DNA from: Centipeda infelix ATCC 43532 | GTDB lineage: Bacteria > Bacillota > Negativicutes > Selenomonadales > Selenomonadaceae | DNA: 64,000 nucleotides | Direction of reading: 5' to 3' | Assembly (NCBI RefSeq): GCF_000234095.1 | Contig: NZ_JH376797.1 | Span: forward strand, 322,493-386,492 | The notes under the pieces: model-generated | Database searches by the model: none | What the model saw: only the letters and a program-made list of their open reading frames with translations | What the model was told of the DNA's origin: nothing | Part shown: positions 4,947 through 61,476 of the stretch, piece after piece | Position numbering within the stretch: the stretch's first letter is position 1 | How the letters are laid out: the number at the start of each line of letters is the position of its first letter | Made by a program: the position numbers and the translations under genes

Positions 4947-5167
4947 AGATCAAACAGATTCTGCGTCAGTATCGTCGGGATTTTTGGGCAATTTTTCGCT
5001 GTGAGGCCTGCGGGCACGAATGTGAGGAGCGGGGCTATGACGATGCCAATTTCCACGTGAATGTTATTCCCGATATGAAGTGCCCACAGTGCGGAAAGAC
5101 GGAGCGGGAGATCGATCCAAACTACCGTCCGCTCAGCACGAAGTATCCCGAGGGAATGCTGTTGTGA
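4943..5167 (+). CDS. Small zinc-ribbon protein
   Basis: A 74-residue protein starting at GTG 4943 behind AGGAGGTAATGCAAT. Two CxxC knuckles (FRCEACGHE and KCPQCGK, about 25 residues apart) form a zinc ribbon. A Tyr/Arg-rich N-terminus could contact nucleic acid. Similar free zinc-ribbon proteins occur in phage early regions, but no partner is known. Confidence 0.65.
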   Translation: MKIKQILRQYRRDFWAIFRCEACGHECEERGYDDANFHVNVIPDMKCPQCGKTEREIDPNYRPLSTKYPEGMLL

Positions 5168-5182
5168 GATAGGAGATACAAC

Positions 5183-5677
5183 ATGACAATCAACATTAAC
5201 ATCACTGGTATGGATCTCGCGGCAGCAGGTAAGGAGGGCATAACCGCCCTCGTGAATGCCTGCACGGCATTCGCCGGCGCATCGCTCGGCACGGAGATCG
5301 AGATGTCGGACAAGCCGCACAAGATGACGTCGGGCGACGGCATCGTCGTGCCGGAGAAGGTGTATGCGGACGAGCCGATTCCGGCAAAGGCAGAACAGGC
5401 GGCACCTGCACCGATTGCTCCGCCGGCTGCCTCGGAGACCATGGTACCTGCTATGCCTGTCACCCCCACGACACCTGCACCGATTCCGACAGCCGCCGCG
5501 CCGACGTATACAGTTGAGGAGCTACAGACGGCATGTGCGCCGCTGATGGACGCGAACCGCATGGCAGATCTGCAGCAGGTTCTCACGAAGTTCGGCGCGA
5601 CATCGCTGCCGGATGTTCCAAAAGAGCAGTACGGTGCACTCGCCGCCGATCTGCGTGCATTGGGGGCGCGTCTTTGA
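5183..5677 (+). CDS. Phage early protein with Pro/Ala linker, unknown
   Basis: A 164-residue protein with an N-terminal domain (MTININITGMDLAAAGKEGI), a long Pro/Ala/Thr-rich linker at ~75-115, and a C-terminal helical domain containing LQTACAPLMDANRMADLQQV and ending LRALGARL. The same C-terminal pattern occurs in hypothetical proteins placed before DUF2800 in Firmicute phages. The linker suggests two tethered domains, one perhaps binding a partner in the recombination module downstream. The stop overlaps the next start. Confidence 0.65.
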   Translation: MTININITGMDLAAAGKEGITALVNACTAFAGASLGTEIEMSDKPHKMTSGDGIVVPEKVYADEPIPAKAEQAAPAPIAPPAASETMVPAMPVTPTTPAPIPTAAAPTYTVEELQTACAPLMDANRMADLQQVLTKFGATSLPDVPKEQYGALAADLRALGARL

Positions 5678-6831
5678 TGGCCGCCGCACACGCACTTCTC
5701 AGCGCGTCGAGCGCACACCGCTGGCTCGTATGCACCGCCGCCCCGAAGCTTGAGGCTGAGTTCCCCGACACGACGAGCACCTACGCTAAGGAGGGTACGC
5801 TCGCACACGAGATCTGTGAGCTGAAGCTGACGAAGTACATCACAACAATGCCGCGTGGGACGTATACGAAGAAGCTCAACGTGCTCAAGAAGCACGAGCT
5901 CTATGACCCCGAGATGGACGAGACGACGGACACCTACCTTGACTACGTGAAACGTACGGCACTCGGTTATGCAGTGCCGCCGAGCATTCAGATCGAGCGG
6001 CGTGTGAACTTTAGCGACTACGCCCCCGACGGTTTCGGCACGGCGGACTGCCTCCTGCTTGCAGGAGATACACTGCACGTCATTGACTATAAGCATGGCA
6101 AGGGCGTTGTCGTCGATGCGGATCACAATCCGCAGATGATGCTCTACGCACTCGGGGCGATACACGACTTCGCCCTGATCTATCGCTTCAAGATTGTCAA
6201 AATGGCGATCGTGCAGCCACGCGTCGGCAGTATCAGCGAGTTCACCTGCACGGCGGACGAACTCCTGCACTGGGGTGAGACGGTCGTGAAGGTCAAAGCG
6301 GCGGAGGCTCTGGGAGAATCCCCCGTCTTTGCAGCGGGCGAGCACTGCCGTTTCTGTCGAGCAAAGCAGCAATGCAAGGCGCGCTGTGAGTACTACGATG
6401 CGGCACTGAATACAATTCCCCTGCACAGAGATCCGAGACTAATTACACTAGAGGATTTGGGGTCCTACCTCAAGAGTGCTGGAGAACTCAAGAAATGGGC
6501 AGAGGATCTCCAAGAATACGCCCTCAGCGAGTGCCTTGCCGGGAGCAACGTCCCCGGCTGGAAAGCTGTGGAGGGACGCGGCAGCCGATCCTTTACGGAT
6601 ATGGATGAAGCCTTCGCCATCCTCGAGAAGGACGGCATCGAAGAATGCCTGCTCTGGGAGCGCAAGCCGCTGACACTCGCGCAGGTGGAGAAGACGGTCG
6701 GCAAGAAGCGTTTCGCGGAACTTGTCGGCACGATGGTGGTCAAAACTCCGGGCAAGCCAACGCTCGCCCCGGAGTCTGATAAACGTCCTGCGGTCACGAA
6801 CGTGCCGCAGGCAGCAGATGTGTTTTCATAA
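5677..6831 (+). CDS. DUF2800 family, PD-(D/E)XK nuclease-like
   Basis: A 384-residue protein beginning MAAAHALLSASSAHRWLVC. The body carries ERRVNFSDYAPDGFGTADCL and HVIDYKHGKG, matching the D...E/DxK core of PD-(D/E)XK exonucleases. A four-cysteine cluster (HCRFCRAKQQCKARC) follows, like the Fe-S staple of AddB/Cas4-type nucleases. DUF2800 genes lie beside DUF2815 and a family A polymerase in many Firmicute phages and are thought to act in recombination-dependent replication. ATG 5677 overlaps the preceding TGA, so translation is coupled. The nuclease role is inferred from motifs. Confidence 0.85.
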   Translation: MAAAHALLSASSAHRWLVCTAAPKLEAEFPDTTSTYAKEGTLAHEICELKLTKYITTMPRGTYTKKLNVLKKHELYDPEMDETTDTYLDYVKRTALGYAVPPSIQIERRVNFSDYAPDGFGTADCLLLAGDTLHVIDYKHGKGVVVDADHNPQMMLYALGAIHDFALIYRFKIVKMAIVQPRVGSISEFTCTADELLHWGETVVKVKAAEALGESPVFAAGEHCRFCRAKQQCKARCEYYDAALNTIPLHRDPRLITLEDLGSYLKSAGELKKWAEDLQEYALSECLAGSNVPGWKAVEGRGSRSFTDMDEAFAILEKDGIEECLLWERKPLTLAQVEKTVGKKRFAELVGTMVVKTPGKPTLAPESDKRPAVTNVPQAADVFS

Positions 6832-6853
6832 GGAACAAAAGGAGAAAAAGAAC

Positions 6854-7531
6854 ATGAGTTACCAAACACGACCCTCGGATGTACTGCTGCGGAACGTGCG
6901 TCTCTCGTACGTCCGGTTTGACAAGGCGGTCTCGCGCAACCCCGGGCAGGAGAAGAAGTACAGCTGCACGATCCTCGTACCGAAGACGGATCTGGCGCAG
7001 AAGCAGGCGATCGATAGCGCCATTGAGGCCGCAATCGCCATCGGCCGTGAGAAGTACGGCAACGCCGTTCCCCCGAAGCCCAAGACAGTAATCTGGGACG
7101 GCGACGGCTACACGCAGTCTGGCAAAGAGTTTGGCCCCGAGGCAAAGGGGCACTGGGTGTTCACCGCGGGTCTTGCAGAGGCACGCGGTCCTGTGCAGGT
7201 GGTTGACCTGAGCCGCAACCCGATCCTCAATCAGAGTGAGATCTACAGCGGGATGTACGCCAACGTCCTCGTCAATTTCTACTTCTACAAGAATGAATCC
7301 GTCGGCGTCGGCGCTGGGCTCGGCCCCGTGCAGAAGGTCGCGGATGGTGAGCCTCTGGGCGGTGTCCTTCCCTCGGCGGATGATGTGTTTGGTGCGCCGG
7401 ACGTCGCAGCTCCAATCGGGCAGACATACGCGGCAGGGGCTCCGCCGTACGCGCAGCCGAGCGTACCGCCCAGTGTCGCCTCGGCGGCGATGCAGCCGCA
7501 GGTTAACCCACTGACCGGCGCTCCGATGTAA
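6854..7531 (+). CDS. DUF2815 family, single-stranded DNA-binding-like
   Basis: A 225-residue protein. It starts MSYQTRPSDVLLRNVRLSYV and has a central beta-rich domain (KKYSCTILVPKTD ... SGMYANVLVNFYFYKN). A low-complexity Gly/Ala/Pro tail begins about residue 165. DUF2815 proteins adopt an OB-like fold and act as phage ssDNA-binding or annealing partners of DUF2800; the flexible tail resembles that of SSB proteins. AAAGGAGAAAAAGAAC precedes the ATG. Between this gene and the polymerase lies a GC hairpin with a T run. Confidence 0.85.
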   Translation: MSYQTRPSDVLLRNVRLSYVRFDKAVSRNPGQEKKYSCTILVPKTDLAQKQAIDSAIEAAIAIGREKYGNAVPPKPKTVIWDGDGYTQSGKEFGPEAKGHWVFTAGLAEARGPVQVVDLSRNPILNQSEIYSGMYANVLVNFYFYKNESVGVGAGLGPVQKVADGEPLGGVLPSADDVFGAPDVAAPIGQTYAAGAPPYAQPSVPPSVASAAMQPQVNPLTGAPM

Positions 7532-7550
7532 CCCAAAGATCTGTAGAACG

Positions 7551-7571
7551 AGGGGGCAGCCGCCCCCTTTT
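7551..7571 (+). terminator. GC hairpin with T run inside the early operon
   Basis: AGGGGGC (7551-7557), loop AGCC, GCCCCCT (7562-7568), followed by TTTT. The stem is perfect but the T run is short, so it may be a partial terminator lowering polymerase expression relative to DUF2815. Confidence 0.6.
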
Positions 7572-7583
7572 GAGGACTTATTT

Positions 7584-9551
7584 ATGCGACATCTATCCAT
7601 TGATCTTGAAACCTACAGCGAAAACGACATTAAGCTGGGCATCGCGAAATACGTGGAATGCCCGAACTTCAAAATCCTATTATTCGCATACGCGTGGGAC
7701 TTCGGCGAGGTACACGTTGTCGATCTTGCCCGTGGGGAGGAAGTTCCCGCCGACGTGATCGACGCGCTCACAAATCCAGAGGTCACGAAGCACGCATTCA
7801 ACGCGGCGTTTGAGCTGCACTGTCTGCACCGCAGCGGTATACTGACTCCTTACAGGCAATGGGCGTGCACGCAGCTCCACGGCCTCTATCTCGGTTATCC
7901 CAAAAGCCTTGACGGCATCGGCAAGGCTCTCGGGCTACCGCAGGACAAGAAAAAGAGTGCGAGCGGTAAAGCCCTCATCCGTTACTTTTGTCTGCCGTGC
8001 AAACCGACGAAGCGCAACGGGGGCAGGACGCGCAATCTGCCGGAGCACGATCCCGACAAGTGGGAGGCGTTCAAGGCGTACAACGCGCAGGATGTTGTGA
8101 CAGAGATGGAGGTCTGCCGCCGTCTTGCGGCGTTCCCCGTTCCCGGCGCGCTGCAAGCGGAGTGGGTGACTGACCAGAAGATCAACCGGCACGGGGTTCT
8201 CCTTGACCTGGATCTCGTACGCGGTGCACTCCAAATCGACGCCGACGAAAAGCAGCATCTTATGCAGGAAGCCGCAGCGATCACGGGGCTTGACAACCCC
8301 AACAGCCGCGATCAGCTGCTCAAATGGCTCAACGACAACACGAACGTCGAGATGGAGAAGCTGACGAAGGAGAGCGTCGCCGAGGCACTCGAGGTCGCTG
8401 ACGATACTGCTGCGAAGGTGCTGGATATCCGCAGACGGCTCTCAAAGACCTCTGTCAAAAAGTACGAGATGATGAAAAATGCTGCAGCCAACACCGACAA
8501 CCGTGTGCGCGGTGTGCTCCAATTCTACGGCGCGAATCGTACCGGCAGATGGGCGGGGCGACTCATCCAGGGGCAGAACCTGCCGCGCAACTATTTGAGG
8601 AACCTCGACCTTGCCCGTGATCTCGTACGACGGGGGAATCGGGAAGCGGTCGCACTTCTCTTCGGCGATGTAGGTGATACGCTCTCACAGCTCATCCGCA
8701 CGGCGATTATCGCACCCGAGGGGAAACTGCTCTGCATTTCGGACTTCTCCGCGATCGAGGCGCGTGTGCTTGCATGGCTCGCGGGGGAGAAGTGGGTGCT
8801 TGAGGCGTTTGATCGGGGAGAGGACATCTACTGCGCGACCGCATCCGGTATGTTCCACGTCCCCGTCGAAAAACACGGCGCGAACAGTCACCTGCGCCAG
8901 AAGGGAAAGATCGCAGTGCTTGCAAGCGGGTATCAAGGCGGTCCGAACGCGCTCATCAGCATGGGTGCTCTCAAGATGGGGCTCACCGAGGAGGAGCTGC
9001 CCGACATCGTCAGCCGCTGGCGCAAGGCGAACCCTCGCATCGTGGATTTCTGGCAGAAGGTCGAGAACGCCGCACTCTATGTGATGAACACGGCGCGTCC
9101 CGTCGGTCTTGACCACGGTATTCTTTTCGCACGCGAGAGCAACCCCGCCGATGGAAGCGACTTTCTCACGATTACGCTGCCATCGGGGCGAAAGCTCTTT
9201 TACCCAAGCCCGCATCTTGCGGTCAATGCCTTCGAGCGGCAGGCGCTCCATTACCGTACGCAGGTCGGCGCGAACTGGGGCACAAACAGTACCTACGGCG
9301 GCAAACTCACGGAGAATATCACGCAGGCAGTCGCACGCGACTGCCTCGCTGCGGCGATCACGCGCCTCACGGAGGCGGGCTATCCTATTGTCATGCACGT
9401 CCATGATGAGGTCGTGATCGAGATCGACGAACTGAATCCGGAGGAAACGCTCGCAGCGGTCAATGCCATCATGGCCGAGCCGTTGCAGTGGGCGCTAGGA
9501 CTGCACCTGACCGCTGCGGGATTCACCAGCAAATACTACATGAAGGACTGA
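7584..9551 (+). CDS. Phage family A DNA polymerase with 3'-5' exonuclease
   Basis: A 655-residue protein. The exonuclease motif I SIDLETYS is at residues 5-12. The polymerase half has motif A DFSAIEARVLAWLAGE at ~387, a motif B region around KGKIAVLASGYQGG, and motif C HDEVVIE at 607-613. The 5'-3' nuclease of bacterial Pol I is absent, as usual in phage enzymes of this type. It copies phage DNA with the primase-helicase encoded next. The start at 7584 has only a weak GAGG upstream, and the hairpin at 7551 precedes it. Confidence 0.93.
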   Translation: MRHLSIDLETYSENDIKLGIAKYVECPNFKILLFAYAWDFGEVHVVDLARGEEVPADVIDALTNPEVTKHAFNAAFELHCLHRSGILTPYRQWACTQLHGLYLGYPKSLDGIGKALGLPQDKKKSASGKALIRYFCLPCKPTKRNGGRTRNLPEHDPDKWEAFKAYNAQDVVTEMEVCRRLAAFPVPGALQAEWVTDQKINRHGVLLDLDLVRGALQIDADEKQHLMQEAAAITGLDNPNSRDQLLKWLNDNTNVEMEKLTKESVAEALEVADDTAAKVLDIRRRLSKTSVKKYEMMKNAAANTDNRVRGVLQFYGANRTGRWAGRLIQGQNLPRNYLRNLDLARDLVRRGNREAVALLFGDVGDTLSQLIRTAIIAPEGKLLCISDFSAIEARVLAWLAGEKWVLEAFDRGEDIYCATASGMFHVPVEKHGANSHLRQKGKIAVLASGYQGGPNALISMGALKMGLTEEELPDIVSRWRKANPRIVDFWQKVENAALYVMNTARPVGLDHGILFARESNPADGSDFLTITLPSGRKLFYPSPHLAVNAFERQALHYRTQVGANWGTNSTYGGKLTENITQAVARDCLAAAITRLTEAGYPIVMHVHDEVVIEIDELNPEETLAAVNAIMAEPLQWALGLHLTAAGFTSKYYMKD

Positions 9552-9564
9552 GGGAGGCGATGAT

Positions 9565-12000
9565 TTGCAAAACGATCGCATCACACATATCAGCGTCGGA
9601 CGAAGTCGTACCTCGAAAGAGTGGCAGCGCACCGAGTATCTCTGGAGCGAATTTGTCGAACGGCTCCGCACACCTGCGCGAACGGATGAAACCGTTGAGC
9701 AGTACCACGCTCTACCAAAGAAGGAGCAGGGCAGGCTAAAGGATGTTGGCGGCTTTGTCGGCGGTACGCTCAAAGGTCTCCAGCGTAAGGCAGCGAACGT
9801 CGAGAGCCGTGATCTCATCACGCTAGACCTCGATGCAATCGCGCCCGGAGAGACCGACGCAATCATTCGCCGCATCGCAGGCCTCGGCGTCGCGTACGCC
9901 GTCTATAGTACGCGCAGCCATACCGAGCATCATCCGCGTCTTCGTGCGATCTTCCCGACGGATCGGAGCGTCACAGCGGACGAATACGAGCCGATCGCGC
10001 GCAAGATTGCAAGCCTCATCGGAATTGATCTTTGCGATCCGACGACGTTTGAGGCGAGCCGCCTCATGTTCTGGCCAAGCTGCAGCAAGGACGCCATCTA
10101 TGTGTTCTCGTATGAGGACAAGCCGTTTCTTTCATCGGACGGGATTCTCAGCACGTACGAGGACTGGCACGATGTGCGGACATGGCCGCAGGTGCCGGGT
10201 GCAAACGAGGCGAAGGAGCGGCTGGCACTCTCCAAGCAGTCGGATCCGACGAAGAAAACGGGCATCGTCGGCGCGTTCTGCCGTACCTATGACATTCTCG
10301 GCGCAATCGAGAATTATATCCCACACGCCTACGAACCGACGGACAGTAGTGACCGACTGACGTTCGCGATGGGATCCACGGTCGCAGGTGCGGTGCTCTA
10401 TGACGATAACAAGTTCCTCTATTCGCATCATGCGACGGATCCATGCAGCGGTCAGCTGGTCAACGCGTTTGATCTCATCCGCCTGCATAAGTTCGCAGAG
10501 CTGGATGAGCCTGCGAAGGAGGGAACGCCAAACAACCGGCTGCCGTCGTTCCTTGCGATGCAGAAGGAGGCACTCGCAGATGCAGCCGTCGCCACGGAGC
10601 TGCAAACGGAACGCGCCGCACAGGCGGCGGACGTGTTCGGGATGGCAGAGCCTTCGGAGCACACGGAAACGGGCGGCGGGGTGGAGAATCCTGCAGTCGA
10701 TGTGAACTGGATGCGCACAGCAGGAATCCAGTTCAGCGACACGGGGAAGCCGAAAAAGACAATGGACAACATAGTGCGGATTCTTCGGAACGATCCGCTG
10801 CTGAAAGGTAGGATCGCCGTCGAAAAGTTCTCCCTGCGGATGCTTGTCTTTGGTACACTGCCATGGAACCCGTCAGACAAACAGCGCGTGTGGTCGGATC
10901 ACGACGACGCGGGCGTGCAGTGGTATCTGGAATACCGTTTCGATATCACCGGCAAGGATAAGATTCTCAGCGCAGTTCAACTTGCTGCCGAGCAGAATGG
11001 ATTCAACGCCGTAACGCAGTACCTTGAGGGGCTGACGTGGGACGGTGCTGCGCGTCTGGATACCCTCTTTCACGATTATCTGGGTGCCGTGGATGAACCC
11101 TATACGCGAGCCGTCTGCCGTAAATCGTTCGTTGCCGCTGTCGCGCGAGCGATGCACCCCGGATGCAAGTATGACTATGTACCCGTTCTCATCGGGCGGC
11201 AGGGGCTTGGCAAGAGCACACTTCTTGCGAAGATGGCAAAGGAATGGTTCAGTGACAGTTTTTCCTCCTTCGACGGCAAGGATGCGCTCGAAGGGATTCA
11301 AGGAAAGTTGCTGATCGAGCTTGCCGAGATGACGGGCTACACGCGGTCAGAGGAGAATATGATCAAGCAGTTCCTCTCACGCACAAGCGATTTCTTCCGT
11401 ATGCCGTTCGGGCGCAGAGCAGCCGAATTTCCCCGTCAATGCGTTTTCTTTGGGTCAAGCAACGATCACGAGTTCCTAAAGGATTCGACTGGAAATCGCC
11501 GCTTTTGGCCGGTGGACGTTGGAAAGTGCCCGGTGCAAAAGAGCATCTGGGAGGATCTGCCGCATGAGGTTGACCAGATCTGGGCGGAAGCTGTGGCAAG
11601 ATTTAGGCAGGGCGAGGCGCTCTATCTGGACGATCAGGAAGTCATTCAGGCGGCATTAGACAACCAAAGCGGGCACCGAGAAGTCAATATCAGGGAAGGC
11701 CTGATTGCCGAGTTCATCACGCGCCCCATTCCAACGAACTGGAACATGATGAAGCTGCCCGAGCGAAAAATCTTCTGGAGCGGCGTCATGGAGGATCGCG
11801 GTGACCTCATCCCGCGCGATCGGGTCTGTGCGCTTGAGATCTGGTGCGAGTGCTTCGACGGCGAGCCGAAGTTCATGCGGCGTGGCGATGCGAAGGAGAT
11901 CAACAAGATCCTAGAAAACCTTCCGGGCGTTATCCGCGACGATGCCACAAGGCGATTCGGGTACTGCGGCGTGCAGCGCGGATTCCATATCATAAACTGA
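9565..12000 (+). CDS. Phage primase-helicase, virulence-associated E/D5 type
   Basis: An 811-residue protein starting at TTG 9565 behind AGGGAGG. The N-terminal ~250 residues look like an archaeo-eukaryotic primase: LDLDAI places a DxD at 88-90, and YSTRSH gives the catalytic His at ~119. The C-terminal half is a VirE/superfamily 3-like ATPase with Walker A GRQGLGKST at ~544-552 and LLIELAEM as Walker B-like strand. Together they prime and unwind phage DNA for the polymerase just upstream. The primase call rests on motif order, the helicase call on the family. It is followed by an origin-like gap. Confidence 0.9.
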   Translation: MQNDRITHISVGRSRTSKEWQRTEYLWSEFVERLRTPARTDETVEQYHALPKKEQGRLKDVGGFVGGTLKGLQRKAANVESRDLITLDLDAIAPGETDAIIRRIAGLGVAYAVYSTRSHTEHHPRLRAIFPTDRSVTADEYEPIARKIASLIGIDLCDPTTFEASRLMFWPSCSKDAIYVFSYEDKPFLSSDGILSTYEDWHDVRTWPQVPGANEAKERLALSKQSDPTKKTGIVGAFCRTYDILGAIENYIPHAYEPTDSSDRLTFAMGSTVAGAVLYDDNKFLYSHHATDPCSGQLVNAFDLIRLHKFAELDEPAKEGTPNNRLPSFLAMQKEALADAAVATELQTERAAQAADVFGMAEPSEHTETGGGVENPAVDVNWMRTAGIQFSDTGKPKKTMDNIVRILRNDPLLKGRIAVEKFSLRMLVFGTLPWNPSDKQRVWSDHDDAGVQWYLEYRFDITGKDKILSAVQLAAEQNGFNAVTQYLEGLTWDGAARLDTLFHDYLGAVDEPYTRAVCRKSFVAAVARAMHPGCKYDYVPVLIGRQGLGKSTLLAKMAKEWFSDSFSSFDGKDALEGIQGKLLIELAEMTGYTRSEENMIKQFLSRTSDFFRMPFGRRAAEFPRQCVFFGSSNDHEFLKDSTGNRRFWPVDVGKCPVQKSIWEDLPHEVDQIWAEAVARFRQGEALYLDDQEVIQAALDNQSGHREVNIREGLIAEFITRPIPTNWNMMKLPERKIFWSGVMEDRGDLIPRDRVCALEIWCECFDGEPKFMRRGDAKEINKILENLPGVIRDDATRRFGYCGVQRGFHIIN

Positions 12001-12252
12001 ACAGATGTAACACAATAAGAGTACGCCGTAACAATGAAGGTTTTTTATGTTTCTTCATTTTTGTTGTTACGCTTGTAAATTACGCGCTAAACCCTTATAT
12101 CTCTAAGGATTATACATATTATGTAACATGTAACTTATATTTATATAAATATATAAATTAGGGGATTAGGGGGCATTACACATAGCCTACACCGCCTAAT
12201 TTATATATCTATATGTGCGTGTGTGACATTGTTACACGGAAAGGAGCTCGGG
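12001..12252. other. AT-rich, repeat-bearing gap: candidate replication origin
   Basis: This 250-base gap holds no gene. It contains TGTAAC at 12006-12011, 12122-12127 and 12129-12134, and GTTAC in the opposite sense at 12066-12070 and 12231-12235. AATGAAG/CTTCATT form a hairpin near 12033-12058. ATATATAAATTAGG (12149-12162) is repeated perfectly inverted at 12195-12208, with a 32-base loop. The middle is almost pure A+T. Its position between the primase-helicase and nuclease/helicase genes fits an origin. No search or experiment supports this yet. Confidence 0.5.
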
Positions 12253-12579
12253 ATGAAAGAACGAGATATCGAAGTGCTGCTGCGCGATGGCGTCAAGCAG
12301 TTGGGCGGCAAAGCCTATAAATGGACATCGCCGGGGAATGCAGGTGTGCCCGACCGCATCGTTATTCTTCCGGGAGGGCGGATTGTATTCGTGGAACTGA
12401 AGCAGGAATGTGGGCGTCTGACACGGCTGCAGAAGGTGCAGCAGGAACAGCTGACCCGCCTCAAGGTGCCTGTGGCGACGCTGTACGGCATCGCAGACGT
12501 ACGCAAGTTTTTGGACTGGGCAAAGGAGCACAGCACGTATGATCTTCAAAGCACATCCGTACCAAAAGTACTGCATTGA
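12253..12579 (+). CDS. VRR-NUC domain nuclease
   Basis: A 108-residue protein. Residues ~20-65 carry the VRR-NUC pattern GNAGVPDRIVILPGGRIVFV followed by ELKQECGRLT. The D in PDR and the ExK in VELK match the PD-(D/E)XK catalytic triad. Such single-domain nucleases, often beside an SNF2 helicase in phages, act on branched or flapped DNA. AAAGGAGCTCGGG precedes the ATG at 12253. Its end overlaps the helicase start by 41 bases, a strong sign that they work together. Confidence 0.9.
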   Translation: MKERDIEVLLRDGVKQLGGKAYKWTSPGNAGVPDRIVILPGGRIVFVELKQECGRLTRLQKVQQEQLTRLKVPVATLYGIADVRKFLDWAKEHSTYDLQSTSVPKVLH

Positions 12580-13918
12580 TCGGCTCATCGTTGATCCGCG
12601 CGTTGCTCTCTTTCTGGACATGGGGCTTGGTAAGACGATCATCACGCTGTCGGCGATCTATCACCTGAAATACGCACGGTTCGCCGTCCGTAAGGTGCTT
12701 ATCATTGCGCCGAAGAAGGTCGCGGAGGCGACGTGGCAGCGCGAGGCGGCAAAATGGGACGGGGTGCACATCCTCCGAATGCAGATGGTTCTCGGCACAC
12801 AAGCACGGCGGTTGCGGGCGCTGAATACGCCCGCCGACATTTACATCATCAATCGCGAAAACGTGTCGTGGCTCGTGGAGCATTACCGAAATGACTGGCC
12901 GTTTGACATGGTGGTCGTCGACGAATCCAGCAGCTTCAAGAATCCGCGTGCCAAACGATTCAAGGCGTTGTCGTACATGTATCCGCACATCAAGCGGATG
13001 GTGCTTCTCACGGGGACGCCAAGCCCGAACGGGATCATCGACCTTTGGAGTCAGATCTATCTTCTGGATCGGGGCGAGCGTCTCGGCAGCACGTTTTCAG
13101 GCTTTCGTAATCGGTATTTCACACCCGGGGAGCGGTCGCGTGACATTATCTATACCTACGACCCGAAAGATGGTGCAGAGGACGCTATTATGAGCGCCAT
13201 CGGCGACATCGCAGTGAGTATGAAGGCGGCGGACTATCTGCAGCTGCCGCCCGTGGTCGAGGATACGATCCCCGTCGTACTGGATGTAAAGGCGCGCAAG
13301 GCGTACGACACGATGGAGCGGACGATGGTGCTGGAACTCCTGCAGAGCGGCGAGCAGATCACGGCGGCGAGTGCTGCGGCACTCTCGAACAAGCTGCAGC
13401 AGCTTGCCAACGGGGCGGTCTACAACGAGGAGCACAAGTCTCATGCGGTGCATGACTGCAAGATTGAGGCGTTCATGGAGCTGATTGAGCAGTTGGGCGG
13501 GAAATCTGCGCTGGTCTTTTACAACTTTCAGCACGATCTTGCGCGGCTTCTCGAAGTACTGCGTCAAACGAAGCTGCGCGTGCGCATCCTGCGCGGAGCA
13601 GAGGATGAGCTGGCGTGGAATCGGGGCGAGGTGGATATTCTCCTTGCGCATCCTGCGAGTGCCGCCTACGGGCTGAACCTGCAGGACGGGGGCAGCCATG
13701 TCGTCTGGTACGGGTTGAACTGGAGCCTTGAACTGTATCAGCAGGCAAATAAGCGTCTGCATCGGCAGGGACAGACCCGGACGGTTATCGTGCACCATCT
13801 CGTCTGCGTGGATACGCGCGATGAGGACATCCTGCGTGCGATCGGCATGAAGGAGCGGGCGCAGGAGTTCGTTCTTGAGAGCCTCAAGGCTCGCATCGAT
13901 AAGTACAGAGTACACTGA
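12539..13918 (+). CDS. SNF2-type DEAD/DEAH helicase
   Basis: A 459-residue protein. Motif I DMGLGKT is at 27-33, motif II VVVDESS has its Asp at 128, motif III is LTGTPSPN, and motif VI QANKRLHRQGQTR lies near the C-terminus. This is the short SNF2 translocase common in Firmicute phages, encoded with VRR-NUC. It probably remodels or unwinds recombination and replication intermediates for the nuclease. Confidence 0.92.
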   Translation: MIFKAHPYQKYCIDRLIVDPRVALFLDMGLGKTIITLSAIYHLKYARFAVRKVLIIAPKKVAEATWQREAAKWDGVHILRMQMVLGTQARRLRALNTPADIYIINRENVSWLVEHYRNDWPFDMVVVDESSSFKNPRAKRFKALSYMYPHIKRMVLLTGTPSPNGIIDLWSQIYLLDRGERLGSTFSGFRNRYFTPGERSRDIIYTYDPKDGAEDAIMSAIGDIAVSMKAADYLQLPPVVEDTIPVVLDVKARKAYDTMERTMVLELLQSGEQITAASAAALSNKLQQLANGAVYNEEHKSHAVHDCKIEAFMELIEQLGGKSALVFYNFQHDLARLLEVLRQTKLRVRILRGAEDELAWNRGEVDILLAHPASAAYGLNLQDGGSHVVWYGLNWSLELYQQANKRLHRQGQTRTVIVHHLVCVDTRDEDILRAIGMKERAQEFVLESLKARIDKYRVH

Positions 13919-14570: not shown

Positions 14571-14846
14571 ATGGCAGATCAGAAATATCCGCAGAGTGCG
14601 GAGTCGAATGAATACAGATACATTGATTTTGAGTGGTTGGATGAGATTGCCACGGGACTGACAGCGGGCGCGGAGAAGCATCCTGGCGAAACATGGCACG
14701 ATATCCCTGCGAAGGAGCACGCTGCACGGGCTCTGCGGCATCTCTCGATGTGGCTTGCTGGCGATCGGAGTGACAGACATATCATCAACGCGAGTATGCG
14801 CTGCATGATGGCGCGGGCGATGGAGCGTGAGGGAGGAAAAGAATGA
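14571..14846 (+). CDS. dATP/dGTP diphosphohydrolase-like protein (DUF5664)
   Basis: A 91-residue protein. FEWLDEIATGLTAGAEKHPG, then a HAARALRHLSMWLAGDRSD helix, matches the all-alpha DUF5664 nucleotide pyrophosphohydrolase-like domain, which carries conserved Glu, His and Arg residues. In phages these proteins adjust the dNTP pool or remove modified nucleotides. AGGGAGGGTGAAAA precedes the ATG. The stop overlaps the DUF1492 start. Confidence 0.75.
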   Translation: MADQKYPQSAESNEYRYIDFEWLDEIATGLTAGAEKHPGETWHDIPAKEHAARALRHLSMWLAGDRSDRHIINASMRCMMARAMEREGGKE

Positions 14847-15253
14847 CGGCGAAAGAATATCTGAGACATATCCGCGATGCAGAGAGTGATCTGCGGAGTG
14901 CAGAGGCGGATTACCAACGCGCACGAGATGATGTTATGAATCTCAAGGCGATTGAATACGACAAGGACAAGGTCAGCAACTCACACATCGGTGATCTTTC
15001 GGATGCGATCGCAGCACTTGAGAAATACGCTGAGCGGGTCAACGCGAAATGGGATGAGCTGATTGCCATGCGCGAGGAGGCGAAGGAGAGGATTGGAGAG
15101 ATCGCAGACGGACGCTACCGTGAGGTGCTGATGCGGCGATATATCTGGGGTGAATCATGGGAGTACATTGCGGTAGGGATGGGATATAGCTTTCGGCAGG
15201 TAACACGATTGCACGGAGGTGCATTGCGGGCGATTGCGGAAAAGATGTCCTAG
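14843..15253 (+). CDS. DUF1492 late-gene transcription regulator (RinA/ArpU-like)
   Basis: A 136-residue protein. Residues 1-75 are a coiled-coil-like helical region with DAESDLRSAEADYQRARDDV. Residues ~85-135 form a sigma-70 region 4-like helix-turn-helix (LMRRYIWGESWEYIAVGMGY and the following helix). Proteins of this group close the early operon and activate late transcription in Firmicute phages. The tandem ATGTCCT repeats and extended -10 that start at its last codons are the likely target. Confidence 0.85.
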   Translation: MTAKEYLRHIRDAESDLRSAEADYQRARDDVMNLKAIEYDKDKVSNSHIGDLSDAIAALEKYAERVNAKWDELIAMREEAKERIGEIADGRYREVLMRRYIWGESWEYIAVGMGYSFRQVTRLHGGALRAIAEKMS

Positions 15254-17153: not shown

Positions 17154-17164
17154 GAGGATGCGAC

Positions 17165-17215
17165 ATGGAGAAAAAGAGGCGACGTTCCCCGCCCATACAC
17201 GGGGACGGGCAGTGA
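17165..17215 (+). CDS. 16-codon ORF overlapping the terminase start, possible leader
   Basis: AGGAGG at 17153-17158, seven bases ahead of ATG 17165, opens MEKKRRRSPPIHGDGQ and a TGA at 17213. The stop overlaps a GTG at 17212 (GTGA) that is in frame with the terminase. This is the geometry of translational coupling through a short leader peptide. There is no independent evidence that the peptide is made. Confidence 0.4.
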   Translation: MEKKRRRSPPIHGDGQ

Positions 17216-18957
17216 CTGACAGGACAACGGCGTATGCGCGGCGGATTGTCGACGGGAAAAAGATATGCGGTTGGACGGAGTATCAGGCGTGCAAACGCCA
17301 CCTTGACGATATGGCGGATAAGGATTTTCCCTATATCTTTGATGTGAAGGCGGCGGAATATCACATCGACCTCGCCAATCAACTCACCATCGGCGAAGGA
17401 CGGACGACGGCACGCCTGACAACGCGCGGATTTCAGAACTTCATCATCGGGAGTTTGTTTGGCTGGCGCAGGAAAAGATCAGTCCTGCGCCGCTTCCGTG
17501 AGGGCTATATTCAACTCGCACGGCAAAACGGGAAGTCGTTTCTCGCCGGGGAGATGTGCAATGACTTTGCAACGTTTGCGGGCTATCAGCACGGGCGCAT
17601 CTACTGCACGGCGACGAAACAAAAACAGGCGAATATAGTATGGGAGGAGGTCGTTAAATTTATATCCTCCGACCCTGATCTCGCAGAACTGTACAAGGTG
17701 CGTGAGTATGACCACACCATCCGCTCCCTTGTCACAAATACGACCATAGAAGCCATTGGCAGAGACACAAAGTCCGCCGATGGCTTCCGCTCTATTCTGG
17801 CAATCGTGGATGAATACCATGCGCACCCGACTGACCAGATGTATAAACTCATGCTGGATGGTCAGATTGCCGTGGACAATGCGCTCACGCTTGCCATAAC
17901 AACGGCGGGCTTTAACCTGAACGCACCGTGCTATGAGCAGTATCAATTCTGCAAAAAGATACTATCGGGAAACGTTCGCAAGGATTCGCTCTTCATTTTC
18001 ATCACGGAGATGGATGAGGATGATGATATATGGGAGCCGAAGAACTGGGCAAAGGCGAATCCGCTGAACCTATGGAATCCCGATGATACGCTCAATGATG
18101 AGATGATTGCCCGTATGGCGGAGAAGGCAATCGACGCACGCGAGAAGCAGGGGAACGACCTTGTGAACTTCCAGACCAAAACACTGAATCGTTGGGTGGA
18201 GTACACTGGCGGCGGACTTCTTGACCTTGCGGCGTGGCGTTCGTGCGCGTCGGATGAGACGCTTGCGGATATGCGCGGGCGTTCGTGCTATCTCGGCATT
18301 GACCTTTCAAGCGGCGGTGATCTCACCAGTATCGCACTGCTCTTCCCAGGTGAAGATGAGGAAGTTTATCTATGGTCGCACAGTTATCTGCCGGAGCTGC
18401 GTCTTGCCGAACATATCCGAACGGATGACGCTCCCTATGGTGTATGGAAAGATGCGGGACTGCTCACGCTCACGAGTGGTATCTATGGTGTCAAGACAGA
18501 TTACAAATACATCATCGCCGACCTTGTGCGCATCATCGAGGCGTATGAGATCGAGATTATCGGTTGTGGCTACGACAGTCACAATGCGAGCGCATTCCTG
18601 TCCGACCTGGAGGCGGTTCTTCCCTGTGACCTCACCGAGATCAAACAGTCCGCGCGTGCACTGAACGACGCAACGAAGGATTTTCAGTTGTCCGTGAAGG
18701 CGGGTAAGGTGCGCTATGACCGTCAAAACGCACTGCTCACATGGAGCATGGTGAATGCAGTCATATCCGCGCCGAACTCGTTCGGTGAGATCAAGATTGA
18801 CAAGATGACGCAGACGAATCGGATTGATCCGTGTGATGCTGTCATGGACGCATGGGCGGTGTATTTTCACGGACACAACAACGCTGTTGTGGATGCGGAG
18901 GAGGCACTGTCTATCTGGTTGGAAGTAACAGCAGGGGGAGGTGAAGAAAAGAGTTGA
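17212..18957 (+). CDS. terL: Terminase large subunit
   Basis: 581 residues from GTG 17212. The ATPase half has Walker A RQNGKS at 104-109 and Walker B IVDEYH with Asp 200-Glu 201. The nuclease half begins with YLGIDLSSGGDL, supplying the first metal-binding Asp, and has a later GCGYDSHNA. This is the motor that packages DNA and cuts it. An in-frame ATG at 17158 would add 18 residues, but it overlaps the AGGAGG itself. I therefore prefer the GTG, fed by the overlapping 16-codon ORF. The end overlaps the portal start. Confidence 0.93.
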   Translation: MTDRTTAYARRIVDGKKICGWTEYQACKRHLDDMADKDFPYIFDVKAAEYHIDLANQLTIGEGRTTARLTTRGFQNFIIGSLFGWRRKRSVLRRFREGYIQLARQNGKSFLAGEMCNDFATFAGYQHGRIYCTATKQKQANIVWEEVVKFISSDPDLAELYKVREYDHTIRSLVTNTTIEAIGRDTKSADGFRSILAIVDEYHAHPTDQMYKLMLDGQIAVDNALTLAITTAGFNLNAPCYEQYQFCKKILSGNVRKDSLFIFITEMDEDDDIWEPKNWAKANPLNLWNPDDTLNDEMIARMAEKAIDAREKQGNDLVNFQTKTLNRWVEYTGGGLLDLAAWRSCASDETLADMRGRSCYLGIDLSSGGDLTSIALLFPGEDEEVYLWSHSYLPELRLAEHIRTDDAPYGVWKDAGLLTLTSGIYGVKTDYKYIIADLVRIIEAYEIEIIGCGYDSHNASAFLSDLEAVLPCDLTEIKQSARALNDATKDFQLSVKAGKVRYDRQNALLTWSMVNAVISAPNSFGEIKIDKMTQTNRIDPCDAVMDAWAVYFHGHNNAVVDAEEALSIWLEVTAGGGEEKS

Positions 18958-29809: not shown

Positions 29810-32800
29810 TACAGATTGTGATGGTGGAAAATCCCTTCGAGATGAAAAAGGAAATCCACTCCGGATGCTACAATCAGGGGAACGTCTGCGCCTACGTGGA
29901 TCCGACGGCGAAGGATATATACCTAAACGGTGTATTGGTCGAAGACGTGGAGCATACATATCCACAAGACGGCGCGCAGCTCATTGTCATGCCGCACATC
30001 GAGGGCGGCGGATTGAAAAAAGTGTTGGGATTCGTGGCGATGATCGCCTTGACCATGTATGCGGGGAGTATTGCGGGCGGTCTTTGGAGAGGCGCGCTTG
30101 GGAGTGCGTTTGCAGGCGGTACGGTTGGAGCGACACTGGCATCCGGCGCGGTCATGTTTCTTGGTGGTAAAATCATCAACTCTATCTTCCCGCAACAAAC
30201 ACCGAATATGAGCTGGATGAGCGAGCAGGAAACGAGCCGTTCCTATGGCTGGGATATTCCTACACCGACAGCGATGGCGGGGCAAGTCGTAGGAGAGACC
30301 TACGGCGAATGTCTGCCCGCGCCGCAGCTTTTGGAGGCGCACGTCGAGACCATCGGAGATAAGCAATATTTAAACCTGCTCTACTCTGGCGGCTACGGTC
30401 CCGTCGACTCCATCGACAACATACGCATTGATTATACGGATATCAGCGTTTTTAGCGGTGTGGAGCTCGAGACGCGCCTTGGCACGAATGACCAAACGCC
30501 AATTTCGTTTTTCAAGAATACACCGCTCGATCAGTCCGTCGGCGTGGAGCTTGTGAAAGGATCCTCGGTCGTTCGAACGAGCAACAGTAAGAGAGCCTCC
30601 AAACTTGAGGTTACGCTTGAATGGCCGGGCGGCTTGTACCACATCAACGATGAGGGCGGGTATGAAAACGCAACAGTCAAATTCATACTGAAGTACCGCC
30701 GGGGCAAAGATGATGCGTGGCATAATTTCAAACATCAAGGAAACACAGAATCTGAGTATAGTGTGACGATGGCGACGGCGGACGCCGTGCGCAGGACTTT
30801 TTCTGTAGAAGGATTGGAGCCGGGGCAATACGATGTGCAGGTCACGCTGACAGAACGTCCGACAACGACACGATATCAGACGATGACACAATGGACGATC
30901 ATGACATCCTACACAGACGGCGTATACAGCCGCCCGAACAAGGTGCTTGTCGGGCTGCGGATTCTTGCGACCAATCAGCTTTCGAGCGGGATTCCATCGG
31001 TCAACTGGCGTCAGAAAAGAAAGACGGTGCATGTATGGGATCCTGTTGCAGGAGAATATGTCGAAAAGGCAGCGGATAATCCGATCTGGGCGGCGTATGA
31101 CATCCTGCACCATTGCCGCAAGTTGAAAAACATCCATACGGGCATGTATGAATTCGTCGCCGATGGTGTCGCAAAAGAATCTTTAGGCGCATACTGGGAG
31201 GAATGGGTATCGGCTGCAGCCTATGCGGATGAAGAAATCCTTAATCAGGACGGGGAAAAAGAGCCGCGCTTCCGCTTTGACGCCATCTTCGATACCGCGC
31301 AAAAACGCATGACCGCTGCACAGAAGGCGGCGAACATCGGTCATGCCGTCATTATCCCGCACGGTCGGAACTATGGCGTTGTCGTAGATCGTCCCGGTAC
31401 AATGACACAGATTTTCGGTGAGGGCCGGACGACCGTCTCGACCGTCAAGGGATCCTTTTCCTCGAAGGAGGATAGAGCGAGGGCAATTGAAGTCACCTAT
31501 AACGATGGGGAGAACGACTTCAAGAATACGGTCATGACGATACGCTCGCCGAACTACAACAAGGACAGCGCATGGACGGACAATACAGCGCCGCTTTCGC
31601 TCTTTGGTGTCAGGCGACGCTCGCAGGCGTATCGCGAAGCTATTACAGCGCTTGCGACCAATGAGCGGCAAGTGCAGACCGTCACACTCTCGGCGGATAT
31701 TGACGCAATCGTCGCCGAATACGGGGACATTGTCGGATTCAACCATGCTGTCAGCCGCATCGGCATCGCGTCCGGGCGCATCGTCACGGCAACGAAATCG
31801 ACAGTCACGCTGGACAGGGAGGTGGAAATCAGCGCCGCGAAGACGTATGAGCTATACATCCAGACGGCAGCCGACACGCTCATCAAGCGCAAGATTGCAG
31901 CCCGTGACTACAAAGGCGACACACTGCTCCTAGAAACGCCGTTTGACGATGACCGGATCCCGGAGCTGCATGACAACTACGCATTTGGCGAGACGAACAA
32001 GGCGGTCAAGCCGTTCCGCATCGTCGGCGCGGCACGGAACGGCGACATGCTCGTAGACCTGACGCTTGCCGAATACGATGAGGCGATGTATGCGACGGAA
32101 CTTGACTATGCCAAATATCCCGAAGTGGACTATACGGATACATCCGAAACAGCGAACGTTCTGACCGTTGTTGCGACGGAGAGAAGCTACGAGGCAGGCG
32201 ACGCCGCCGTTGTAGATGTTTTTGTCAAATGGACGATGAGTAAGTCCGGAAGAAGTCCAGACGGTTACATCGTTGAGCTTTCCGGGCGAAGCGGTGACTA
32301 TAGCGACCAAAACCGCACGGAAAAGACAAGCTACACATTTCACAACGTCAAGCAGGGCGAGACGTACGACATTACGGTAAAATGCGTGTTTGGTGAAATC
32401 ACCATAGGTGGCGCGGCAACCATGCTCAAGGTCAGCGCCGGCACGAAAGCGCCGACGGTAAAGCCGGACGCGCCGCAGAAGCTAAATGTCGTCATGGGAC
32501 GGACGGTCAAAGTATTTTGGAACGAAGTGACCAATACACATATCGCTTGCTACGAACTGAGGACAAATGCAGACAAGGGGAAGACCGAAGGACTGCTGCT
32601 GCAAACGAAAGACATACAAGCGTCCGTTGAGTTGAAAAATCGAAAAGGGACGCTCTACCTGTTTGCCAAAAACCGTATAGGTCAATACAGCGACCCTGCA
32701 AAGATTGATTATGAAAAGACCGTGCCGCGCGCGCCGAAATGGCTGAATGTTGCGGGTAAGATGGGTGCCGTTGCCATTACAACAGAAGCCGTCCCGAACG

Positions 32801-60282: not shown

Positions 60283-61191
60283 TTACTTGAGTGCTTCCTG
60301 CAAGGTCTTCATATTATTTTTCATTGTGTCGATATAGGCATTCTTCGCCGCAGGGGTTGCCTCACCAGTCACAACAGGATCGAGTGTATAGATCTTCGCT
60401 CCCGTCTCGCGAGCGATGGTCTCAGCAGCAGCAGGGGAGTACTGGGGCTCCGTAAAGAGAACCTTTGTGGGGAGGGCGTTGACCTGTTCGATGGTCTCCT
60501 GCAGCTCCGTCGGAGTCGGCTCTGTGCCGGGCTCACGCTCCACAACACCGATGATGTTCAGATTGAATTCCTTTGCAAAGTAGGGGAACGCCTCGTGAAA
60601 CGTGACAATGTCCTTGTGCGGAACATTGTCGAGAGCCGCGTGCATTTCACTCTTGAGCGAGGTGAGCTTTTCGATGTATGCGACGGCGTTCTTCTCGTAT
60701 GCCGCAGCATGCGCGGGATCAGCTTCCTTGAGCTGGTCGGCAATGTTCCGTACCTGCGTAATCGCATCCGTAACACTCAGCCAGACGTGGGGATTGTCCC
60801 CCTCCTCGTCATCATGAATGAGTTCGATGCCGCGCGAGGCATCGATGACCTTCAGCTTCTTCTGCTGCTCGGTCACCTTGTCCATGAAGTCCTCCATACC
60901 GGCTCCATTGATGACAAAGGCATCCGCCTTTTCGAGCGTCTTCATATCCTCCGTCATGAGCTGATAGTCATGCAGGCAGCCCGTCTGCGGCTTCGTCATA
61001 TTATATACTTCGACGCCGTCCACACCGTCTGTAATGTTGATTGTCGCAACATACATGGGATAGAACGAGGTAACAATGCGGAACGGCTCTGCCGTTTTCT
61101 TTTCTGCGGGCTTGTCCGCGCCGCCGCAGCCGACAAGGGCAACGGAAAGGACAAGGAGCAGGAGAGATAGAATCTTCGTTGTACTACGCAT
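60283..61191 (-). CDS. Metal ABC transporter substrate-binding lipoprotein (ZnuA-like)
   Basis: A 302-residue lipoprotein: a signal peptide with LVGC lipobox (Cys22), followed by the cluster A-I fold with NGAGMEDFMDKV, NPHVWLSVTDA, TFHEAFPYFAKEF and FTEPQYSP. The His residues of the second and third motifs and the acidic residue of the last are the usual zinc or manganese ligands. No permease or ATPase gene lies next to it, so its partners are elsewhere. TAAGGAGATCTGTTACCC precedes the ATG. Confidence 0.9.
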   Translation of the reverse strand: MRSTTKILSLLLLVLSVALVGCGGADKPAEKKTAEPFRIVTSFYPMYVATINITDGVDGVEVYNMTKPQTGCLHDYQLMTEDMKTLEKADAFVINGAGMEDFMDKVTEQQKKLKVIDASRGIELIHDDEEGDNPHVWLSVTDAITQVRNIADQLKEADPAHAAAYEKNAVAYIEKLTSLKSEMHAALDNVPHKDIVTFHEAFPYFAKEFNLNIIGVVEREPGTEPTPTELQETIEQVNALPTKVLFTEPQYSPAAAETIARETGAKIYTLDPVVTGEATPAAKNAYIDTMKNNMKTLQEALK

Positions 61192-61235
61192 GGGTAACAG
61201 ATCTCCTTAAAGCAGTTGAACATTATGTGAATTTG

Positions 61236-61247
61236 GTGAAATTTCAC
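61236..61247. promoter_or_regulatory. 12-base palindrome in the lipoprotein gene leader
   Basis: GTGAAATTTCAC is a perfect dyad 44 bases upstream of the lipoprotein start, just downstream of its -10 box. A related TGAAAATTTCA lies in the gap towards rpsU. It may bind a metal-dependent repressor such as Zur or Fur, which is inferred only from the gene it precedes. Confidence 0.45.
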
Positions 61248-61254
61248 GAGTAGA

Positions 61255-61284
61255 ATAATACCGCACGTTGAGAGGTAATGTCAA
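61255..61284 (-). promoter_or_regulatory. Lipoprotein gene promoter
   Basis: Minus-strand TTGACA (+ 61279-61284) and TATTAT (61255-61260), spacer 18. Confidence 0.75.
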
Positions 61285-61389
61285 TATAAAATATAAAAAT
61301 TTTTTATTGTTGCATACTATGTATAAATAGATGTTCAAACGAACAGTTGATGATATCCTCAGCTGTTTTGTGAAAATTTCATAACACGA

Positions 61390-61419
61390 TTGACACGGAT
61401 TATCCCTATGGGGTATAAT
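61390..61419 (+). promoter_or_regulatory. rpsU promoter
   Basis: TTGACA (61390-61395) and TATAAT (61414-61419), both consensus, spacer 18. Confidence 0.88.
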
Positions 61420-61476
61420 GTCCTTGCATCATTTATTGGTGCAACATTACTCCGCGCGTGGAGGGAGGGGAAATGC

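Follow-up and report, generated by a model that had tools for sequence, protein, structure and literature searches.

A probable iteron-type replication origin directly downstream of a virE/vapE primase-helicase gene in a Centipeda infelix prophage

Introduction

The alpha protein of phage P4 is a primase-helicase initiator with a C-terminal winged-helix domain that binds the origin, and the SaPIs differ among themselves in iteron sequence. As described in the sections of the source papers available to us, PICI origins, among them those of SaPIs, are located immediately 3′ of rep, where an AT-rich region is flanked by two sets of iterons (PMC6092414; PMC7581432), and the C-terminus of SaPI Rep recognises this origin, with its short iterons, downstream of the rep gene (PMC7581432). 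According to the same sections, Cch2 of SCCmec is a D5-type helicase; its C-terminal domain binds a repeat sequence that follows cch2, and its helicase activity depends on the AAGTG iteron (PMC7581432).

For Candidatus Heliusviridae, the available portion of the source paper names genes for DUF2800, DUF2815, DNA polymerase I, a VRR-NUC nuclease and an SNF2 helicase (PMC9226167), and the nine-gene criterion comprises DUF2800, DUF2815, PolA, VRR-NUC, SNF2, TerL, portal, Clp protease and capsid. The terms “origin of replication” and “iteron” are absent from the text of that paper as available to us, and no origin description for this phage module was found in searches of an open-licence library or by term in papers on such phages, although one may exist elsewhere.

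The subject of this report is an intergenic gap in the window, the 64-kb stretch of DNA that was analysed (64,000 nucleotides). A sequence-only reading had proposed the gap as a phage replication origin between a primase-helicase gene and a nuclease gene, and comparison now supports that proposal through the repeats and layout in relatives, homology to PriRep1 and a PICI-like layout. Judged from sequence comparison, the gap is very probably an iteron-type prophage replication origin served by VirE/VapE, the product of the gene that precedes it.

The locus and its genes

The 252-bp gap (12001–12252) separates the stop codon of virE/VapE from the start codon (ATG) of a small nuclease gene (Table 1), and both neighbours had been correctly named from the sequence. 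The genes around the gap are an ordinary phage replication operon, in the order DUF2800 exonuclease, Gp2.5-like ssDNA-binding protein, PolA, VapE primase-helicase, nuclease, SNF2-type helicase and terminase; the terminase large subunit (17158–18957, phrog_9) and a phage polymerase are both encoded in the window. The only Pfam match of the nuclease is borderline (TBD), and the same slot in relatives L043, L047 and L090 is annotated VRR-NUC.

In the region 5533–7531, the DUF2800 ORF (5533–6831) and the ssDNA-binding ORF (TTG at 6722) overlap by 110 bases as listed, and the true start of the latter is probably further in than TTG 6722. Outside the phage part, from 36570 to 63412, the window resembles ordinary host chromosome, with genes for a GTPase (YlqF-like by our own reading), RNase HII, a DHH/CBS protein, UvrD/PcrA, an SbcC-like protein, AddB, a ZnuA-like protein and RecA. 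No tRNA genes were found in the window.

Sequence elements of the gap

The operon has a GC content of 55–64% per 500 bp (5001 to 12000). AT makes up 66% of the gap, and the highest AT content found for any 252-bp stretch belongs to the one starting at 11981. The other stretch of that length in the window with the most AT (61171–61453, 0.68) lies beside the ZnuA-like gene in the host part.

GTAAC/GTTAC starts six times in the gap, at 12007(+), 12028(+), 12066(−), 12123(+), 12130(+) and 12231(−), compared with 0.17 expected from its density over the 64 kb (44 in total), and none of the 252-bp stretches scanned in the window has more. The top non-AT 6-mer is GTAACA with five copies (p = 0.013, 300 dinucleotide shuffles), and when the 64 kb was scanned in 1275 overlapping 252-bp windows, some word reached five copies in 7 of them. 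The inverted repeat, perfect over 14 bp, was equalled in 0 of 200 dinucleotide shuffles (shuffle mean 7.6, p = 0.005) and can be extended to 20 bp at 95%. As single-stranded DNA, 12120–12250 folds more strongly than chance (z = −2.91). Three features that the sequence-only reading had pointed out, namely long A+T runs in a GC-rich operon, TGTAAC/GTTAC motifs in both senses and a 14-base perfect inverted repeat, were all borne out by these measurements.

Table 1. Coordinates of the candidate origin, its elements and the flanking genes in the window
Feature	Position	Strand	Basis
virE/VapE primase-helicase gene, 811 aa, putative initiator	9565–12000	+	Pfam VapE-like_dom 4.9e-78; phrog_256
C-terminal winged-helix codons (731–811), proposed iteron reader	11755–11997	+	model secondary structure
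Proposed replication origin	12001–12252	.	gap sequence and relatives
Upstream iteron array	12006–12070	.	GTAAC 12007(+), 12028(+); GTTAC 12066(−)
Tandem iterons, GTAAC 12123 and 12130 (TGTAACATGTAAC)	12122–12134	+	spacing 7
AT-rich spacer from tandem to inverted iterons, proposed melting/loading core	12135–12230	.	recurring geometry in relatives
Inverted repeat (14-bp perfect), left arm	12149–12162	+	shuffle test; ssDNA fold
Inverted repeat, right arm; overlaps CGCCTAA element 12193–12199	12195–12208	+	shuffle test
Alternating purine/pyrimidine tract, 16 bases, TATATGTGCGTGTGTG	12210–12225	+	longest such run in gap
Inverted iteron GTTACA, closes spacer	12231–12236	−	word scan
Likely ribosome-binding site AAAGGAG of nuclease gene	12240–12246	+	own reading of sequence
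VRR-NUC-type nuclease gene, ATG start	12253–12579	+	phrog_93 endonuclease 5.2e-24

Repeats in related loci

Homologues of virE were gathered from genomes and phage records, and the stretch from virE to the next VRR-NUC-like gene was taken. They occur in 45 of 189 genomes of the family (E ≤ 1e-30) and in 26 of 398 of the phylum (E ≤ 1e-100). The discovery set consisted of 93 VirE loci with a score of at least 350, leaving out L001, L002, L007, L008 and L038 (distant, duplicate or fragment) and L036 (score too low). A nuclease gene follows in 85 of these loci, and none was found downstream in the other eight (L014, L024, L059, L072, L074, L083, L085 and L094). Dropping three loci with gaps of 0–12 bp left 82 gaps, the window counted in, and later discovery analyses used 79 loci, minus L086, L095 and L096 (gap >650 bp). 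The held-out set was 80 viral contigs fetched later with an alignment query (a single-protein query gave only two distant loci), reduced to 73 by the removal of three loci in which no nuclease was found and four with a gap below 100 bp; held-out gaps above 650 bp (L149) were trimmed to 650. In each gap, the non-AT 6-mer with most copies on the two strands was compared with dinucleotide shuffles (p < 0.05).

A significantly repeated word is present in 71 of the 82 virE–nuclease gaps, in 53 of them above all 300 shuffles, compared with 5/82 equal-length controls at the virE end, 0/82 deeper inside virE and 4/82 after the gap. The fresh viral contigs gave 67 of 73 gaps against 6 of 73 in the virE control, and such a word was present in 3 of the 29 intergenic stretches of 150 bp or longer found elsewhere in these loci. 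No word passed p < 0.05 in 11/82 discovery and 6/73 held-out gaps. By eye, similar repeats are seen in L059 and L083, two of the loci in which no nuclease was found, and L124, whose gap as called is under 100 bp, carries GGAACA 11 times, so that its short gap is a start-site error. Relatives with the gap include phages of Paenibacillus, Enterococcus, Staphylococcus, Clostridioides, Fusobacterium and Corynebacterium, along with many prophages, and up to 15 copies of a word are found in one gap (L079, L080).

The words differ by phage, which is what one would expect if they are iterons whose initiator diverges: TGTAACA-like in the window, and GTCAACA, GGAACA, GATACA, GGATAC, GACTAC, GGCAAC and others elsewhere. 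It had been suggested that related phages be aligned to see if the motifs are kept; the arrangement is kept at the rates given above, but the letters are not.

Some depositor annotations fall within these gaps. Tiny hypothetical genes are annotated in L044 (8527–8616), L045 (8395–8514), L040 (10517–10636) and L046 (8419–8568 and 8629–8730), and, overlapping the repeats, may be annotation artefacts. In Staphylococcus phage QT1 (L047), the depositor placed repeat_region features, with no function named, at 8402–8445, 8546–8562 and 8744–8760, in or beside the gap.

The arrangement also has exceptions. In six loci the nuclease gene follows virE directly without a gap (L017, L033 and L093 in the discovery set; L153, L154 and L174 in the held-out set), of which L153 and L154 may be one phage type, since their C-terminus and downstream sequence are shared. 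The pattern is also absent between virE and the nuclease in all four Bacteroidales phages sampled (L093–L096): L093 has no gap, no nuclease was found in L094, and L095 and L096 have long gaps (word p = 0.34 and 0.83). In Bacteroides phage BF486P3 (L093, record L179), the top 6-mer cluster of the 49 kb scanned is ATGGCA, with eight copies, at 30701–31100 within a 1.7-kb intergenic region, and does not stand out with 7- and 8-mers. Our guess is that the origin of BF486P3 has been relocated to this place (∼30.7–31.1 kb). Relatives with the same replication genes and no such repeats had been named in advance as a finding that would refute an origin. Most relatives keep the arrangement; the gapless loci and the Bacteroidales phages count against it.

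A shared layout

Layout was counted in 110 non-redundant loci (core identity <85%) of the 138 with a significant word, and, as the 110 were drawn only from such loci, the counts do not speak for loci without a word. The recurring order is iterons, an AT-rich spacer of ∼100 bp, one or more inverted iterons and the nuclease gene. Spacing between same-strand neighbouring words peaks at 9 and 12 bp in the relatives. The largest inter-iteron interval measures 85–130 bp in 65 of the 110 loci, with inverted flanking words in 61 of the 65, and is shorter or longer in 45. Within those 65 loci the spacer has a mean AT of 0.69, compared with 0.63 upstream. AC/GT is contained in 96% of the top words of the 110 loci, versus 61% of top words from shuffled gaps. 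That the iterons can be anchored on AC (137/138) is not counted as evidence, since the anchor could be moved at will; the comparison with shuffled gaps is the fair control.

Several further elements recur. CGCCTAA is found in 32/110 gaps (0/110 shuffled) and CGCGCG in 38/110 (∼3 shuffled), the latter, where placed, 20 times in the spacer and four times after it. The longest alternating purine/pyrimidine run averages 15.6 in the 110 relatives against 8.9 when shuffled, and exceeds all 19 shuffles in 65/110. A weak signal was seen for CCTTG[AT][AT] 5′ of the tandem iterons (20/110 versus 6.4), a form that the window does not have. No enrichment over shuffled gaps was found in the 110 gaps for TTAG[AG] (61 versus 58.8), GTGCG/CGCAC (30 versus 26.0) or DnaA boxes (3 versus 6.4). 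Folding as single-stranded DNA is stronger in 109 relatives than in the control (mean z −1.72 versus −0.35; z < −2 in 37% versus 5%), and the longest perfect inverted repeat lies above all 19 shuffles in 23 of 40 sampled relatives. The window fits the common layout, with tandem iterons at 12123/12130(+), a spacer with CGCCTAA and the alternating tract, and the inverted iteron at 12231(−).

The VirE initiator and its C-terminal domain

An AlphaFold2 model of VirE (mean pLDDT 87) has a pTM of 0.50, which leaves the relative placing of its domains uncertain. The predicted domains are an AEP-like N-terminus (∼4–198), a D5/SF3-like helicase (∼480–705) and a C-terminal winged helix (∼731–811). The closest structure is PriRep1 (PDB 7pds), aligned over 425 residues within 380–811 (Z 34.2, rmsd 3.0), and by sequence 7pds matches residues 392–807 with an E-value of 1.8e-69 and ∼35% identity; structure matches after it score Z 15.9 and lower. 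The N-terminus aligns over 149 residues within 4–198 with the AEP primase-polymerase S-2L PrimPol (6zp9, Z 10.0). In the model, helices at 756–763 and 773–785 are followed by wing strands at 789–798 and 802–809, and by our own reading the two helices and two-stranded wing of 756–809 would make up a winged-helix pattern.

Comparison of initiators with different words offers a view of which part of VirE may read the iterons. Three pairs of loci, L018/L019, L013/L048 and the Corynebacterium phages Dina/Stiles (L087/L089), have initiators at least 90% identical over most of their length and different words. VirE of L018 and L019 is 98% identical and their gaps are 87% identical; at several iterons GTCGTG in one is replaced by GTCGGA in the other, the intervening gap is mostly unchanged, and one ACGACA copy is identical in both. 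In L013/L048 and in Dina/Stiles, part of the spacer is nearly identical and the arrays differ.

Nine different-word and eleven same-word pairs were picked by eye, one of them (L077/L078) including a non-significant word (L078, p = 0.33). Differences at VirE 780–811 out of all differences number 9/22 (L018/L019), 18/70 (L013/L048) and 5/573 (L087/L089, where 523 of the 573 fall in an over-long N-terminal frame), then 22/148, 13/168, 16/134, 26/166, 31/185 and 17/190 in the other six different-word pairs. The same-word pairs gave 0/35, 0/41, 4/48, 4/58, 4/90, 2/19, 18/173, 16/206, 2/14, 0/11 and 0/17.

The discovery set, which served to shape the wing test, is one in which identity at 788–811 relative to the core is lower in different-word pairs (p = 3.6e-05; 10 same, 19 different), an effect that can be inflated because same-word pairs are on average closer relatives. 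The same comparison gave p = 0.00084 for 761–787 and p = 0.0024 for 661–760, with no effect in the N-terminus or helicase. The held-out set had the same sign and was not significant (p = 0.097; 10 same, 20 different pairs), and at a core identity of at least 0.75 the sign was reversed (p = 0.69; 7 same, 6 different pairs). Pooled tests, which include the discovery pairs, gave p = 0.00029 (21 and 45 pairs) and, at a core identity of at least 0.8, p = 0.024 (15 and 12 pairs). Nearest-neighbour retrieval, which yields ranks and no p-value, compared 132 windows; the wing took ranks 2, 3, 6 and 2 with held-out loci and 19, 15, 5 and 3 with discovery loci. Windows within 685–726 rank about equal to the wing, and the specificity determinant may thus be wider than the wing. 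In a windowed partial correlation, 251–270 (0.121) is level with 781–800 (0.120).

Single-residue tests found no simple residue-to-base code. Of the columns compared with iteron base −1, residue 803 scored highest (z 4.3) and was rejected when it failed among distant pairs (p = 0.097). Of five tests made without correction, 806/−2 (p = 0.008) and 792/−4 (p = 0.023) gave the best values. On the pair and retrieval comparisons it is reasonably likely that the C-terminal domain of VirE is the iteron reader, with the wing as its variable part.

Alternative explanations

The repeats may be read instead as operators, through which a transcription regulator, VirE or another phage protein, would control the nuclease, helicase and late genes from a promoter in the AT-rich part. 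The gap does interrupt a same-strand operon, short inverted words are typical of operators too, and a transcriptional-regulator-like protein is encoded nearby (14843–15253, phrog_36). However, no sigma-70-like promoter was found in the gap, the single one between 11500 and 12700 being at 12615–12642 (1.3 in shuffles), and an initiator is the better fit to as many as 15 copies per gap, to tandem words 9 and 12 bp apart and to inverted words on the two sides of a spacer. We consider operators alone unlikely, and the iteron sites could serve as both operators and origin.

Less likely again is that the gap works by secondary structure, a hairpin or cruciform acting as a terminator, an RNA element or a site of single-strand initiation, with the words secondary. 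The inverted repeat and folding of the window point in this direction, as do the folding and inverted repeats of the relatives, but part of the folding is explained by inverted iterons and spacer boxes, Rfam, searched at gathering scores, matched nothing in the window, and no terminator-like site was found in the gap. A role of the spacer in melting or single-strand priming would be a component of an origin and not a rival to it. That the gap is an AT-rich intergenic stretch without function, its repeats due to chance, is the least probable account and a very improbable one: the 6-mer statistic of the window itself is moderate and its motifs were chosen after reading, but independent relatives show repeat enrichment at the same place and over a similar length.

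Proposed mechanism and implications

For an origin served by VirE, the C-terminal winged helix would bind the TGTAACA-like iterons, and the protein would collect at both ends of the ∼100-bp AT-rich spacer, at the tandem iterons and at the inverted iteron. The helicase ring would then melt the spacer and load, perhaps as two opposed hexamers, after which the N-terminal AEP-like domain would prime and the phage PolA would extend. As each lineage has its own iteron word, each origin would be fired by its own initiator and no other. We tentatively suggest that the origin may be modular, with a core (AT-rich spacer, CGCCTAA box and alternating tract) that is retained while iterons and initiator wing change in concert, even one iteron at a time with the backbone nearly unaltered; co-resident prophages and satellites would in that case be unable to fire each other’s origins. 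The gap marks where a widespread phage module probably starts replication, and would extend the SaPI/PICI type of origin to full phages. The natural word-switch pairs make origin specificity, prophage replication incompatibility and satellite–phage competition testable.

Comparison with known systems

Of the Heliusviridae genes, six were looked at in the window phage, and DUF2800, the Gp2.5-like ssDNA-binding protein (PF10991, which we take to be DUF2815), PolA, the nuclease, SNF2 and TerL are present. Judged from the replication genes and TerL, and from the partial description available, the window phage appears to carry the Candidatus Heliusviridae gene module. A like gap, with nine copies of AGGAAC, is found in Evtepia phage NatCom_42594 (Ca. 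Heliusvirales).

Among initiators, PriRep1 (7pds, “Similar to D. nodosus vapE”, solved with dsDNA), which presumably comes from a SaPI, is homologous over the VirE helicase and C-terminal domain, although the 7pds chain spans only the part matching VirE 380–811. The SaPI5 primase-helicase (7ola, 7om0) has the helicase fold in common with VirE (Z 13.1 over 284 and 321 residues) and is a distant relative at most, given an identity of 9–11% (7ola 11%) and an rmsd above 6. The origin layout of P4 differs from that of the virE–nuclease gap. The Cch2 system, set beside VirE by its description in the available sections of the source, differs in having three iterons and separate polymerase proteins (PMC7581432).

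A close likeness is to the SaPI/PICI Rep–ori arrangement. The candidate origin of the window likewise lies immediately 3′ of the initiator gene (at 12001, after the virE stop), its two iteron sets (12123/12130(+) and 12231(−)) flank an AT-rich region (12135–12230), and VirE is a vapE-like primase-helicase related to PriRep1. In contrast to a PICI, which is a satellite, the window phage has its own PolA and terminase; because the terminase large subunit and a phage polymerase are encoded, the element is not a PICI and only the type of origin would be common to both. By analogy, then, the gap looks like a SaPI/PICI-type origin, here in a full-size temperate phage.
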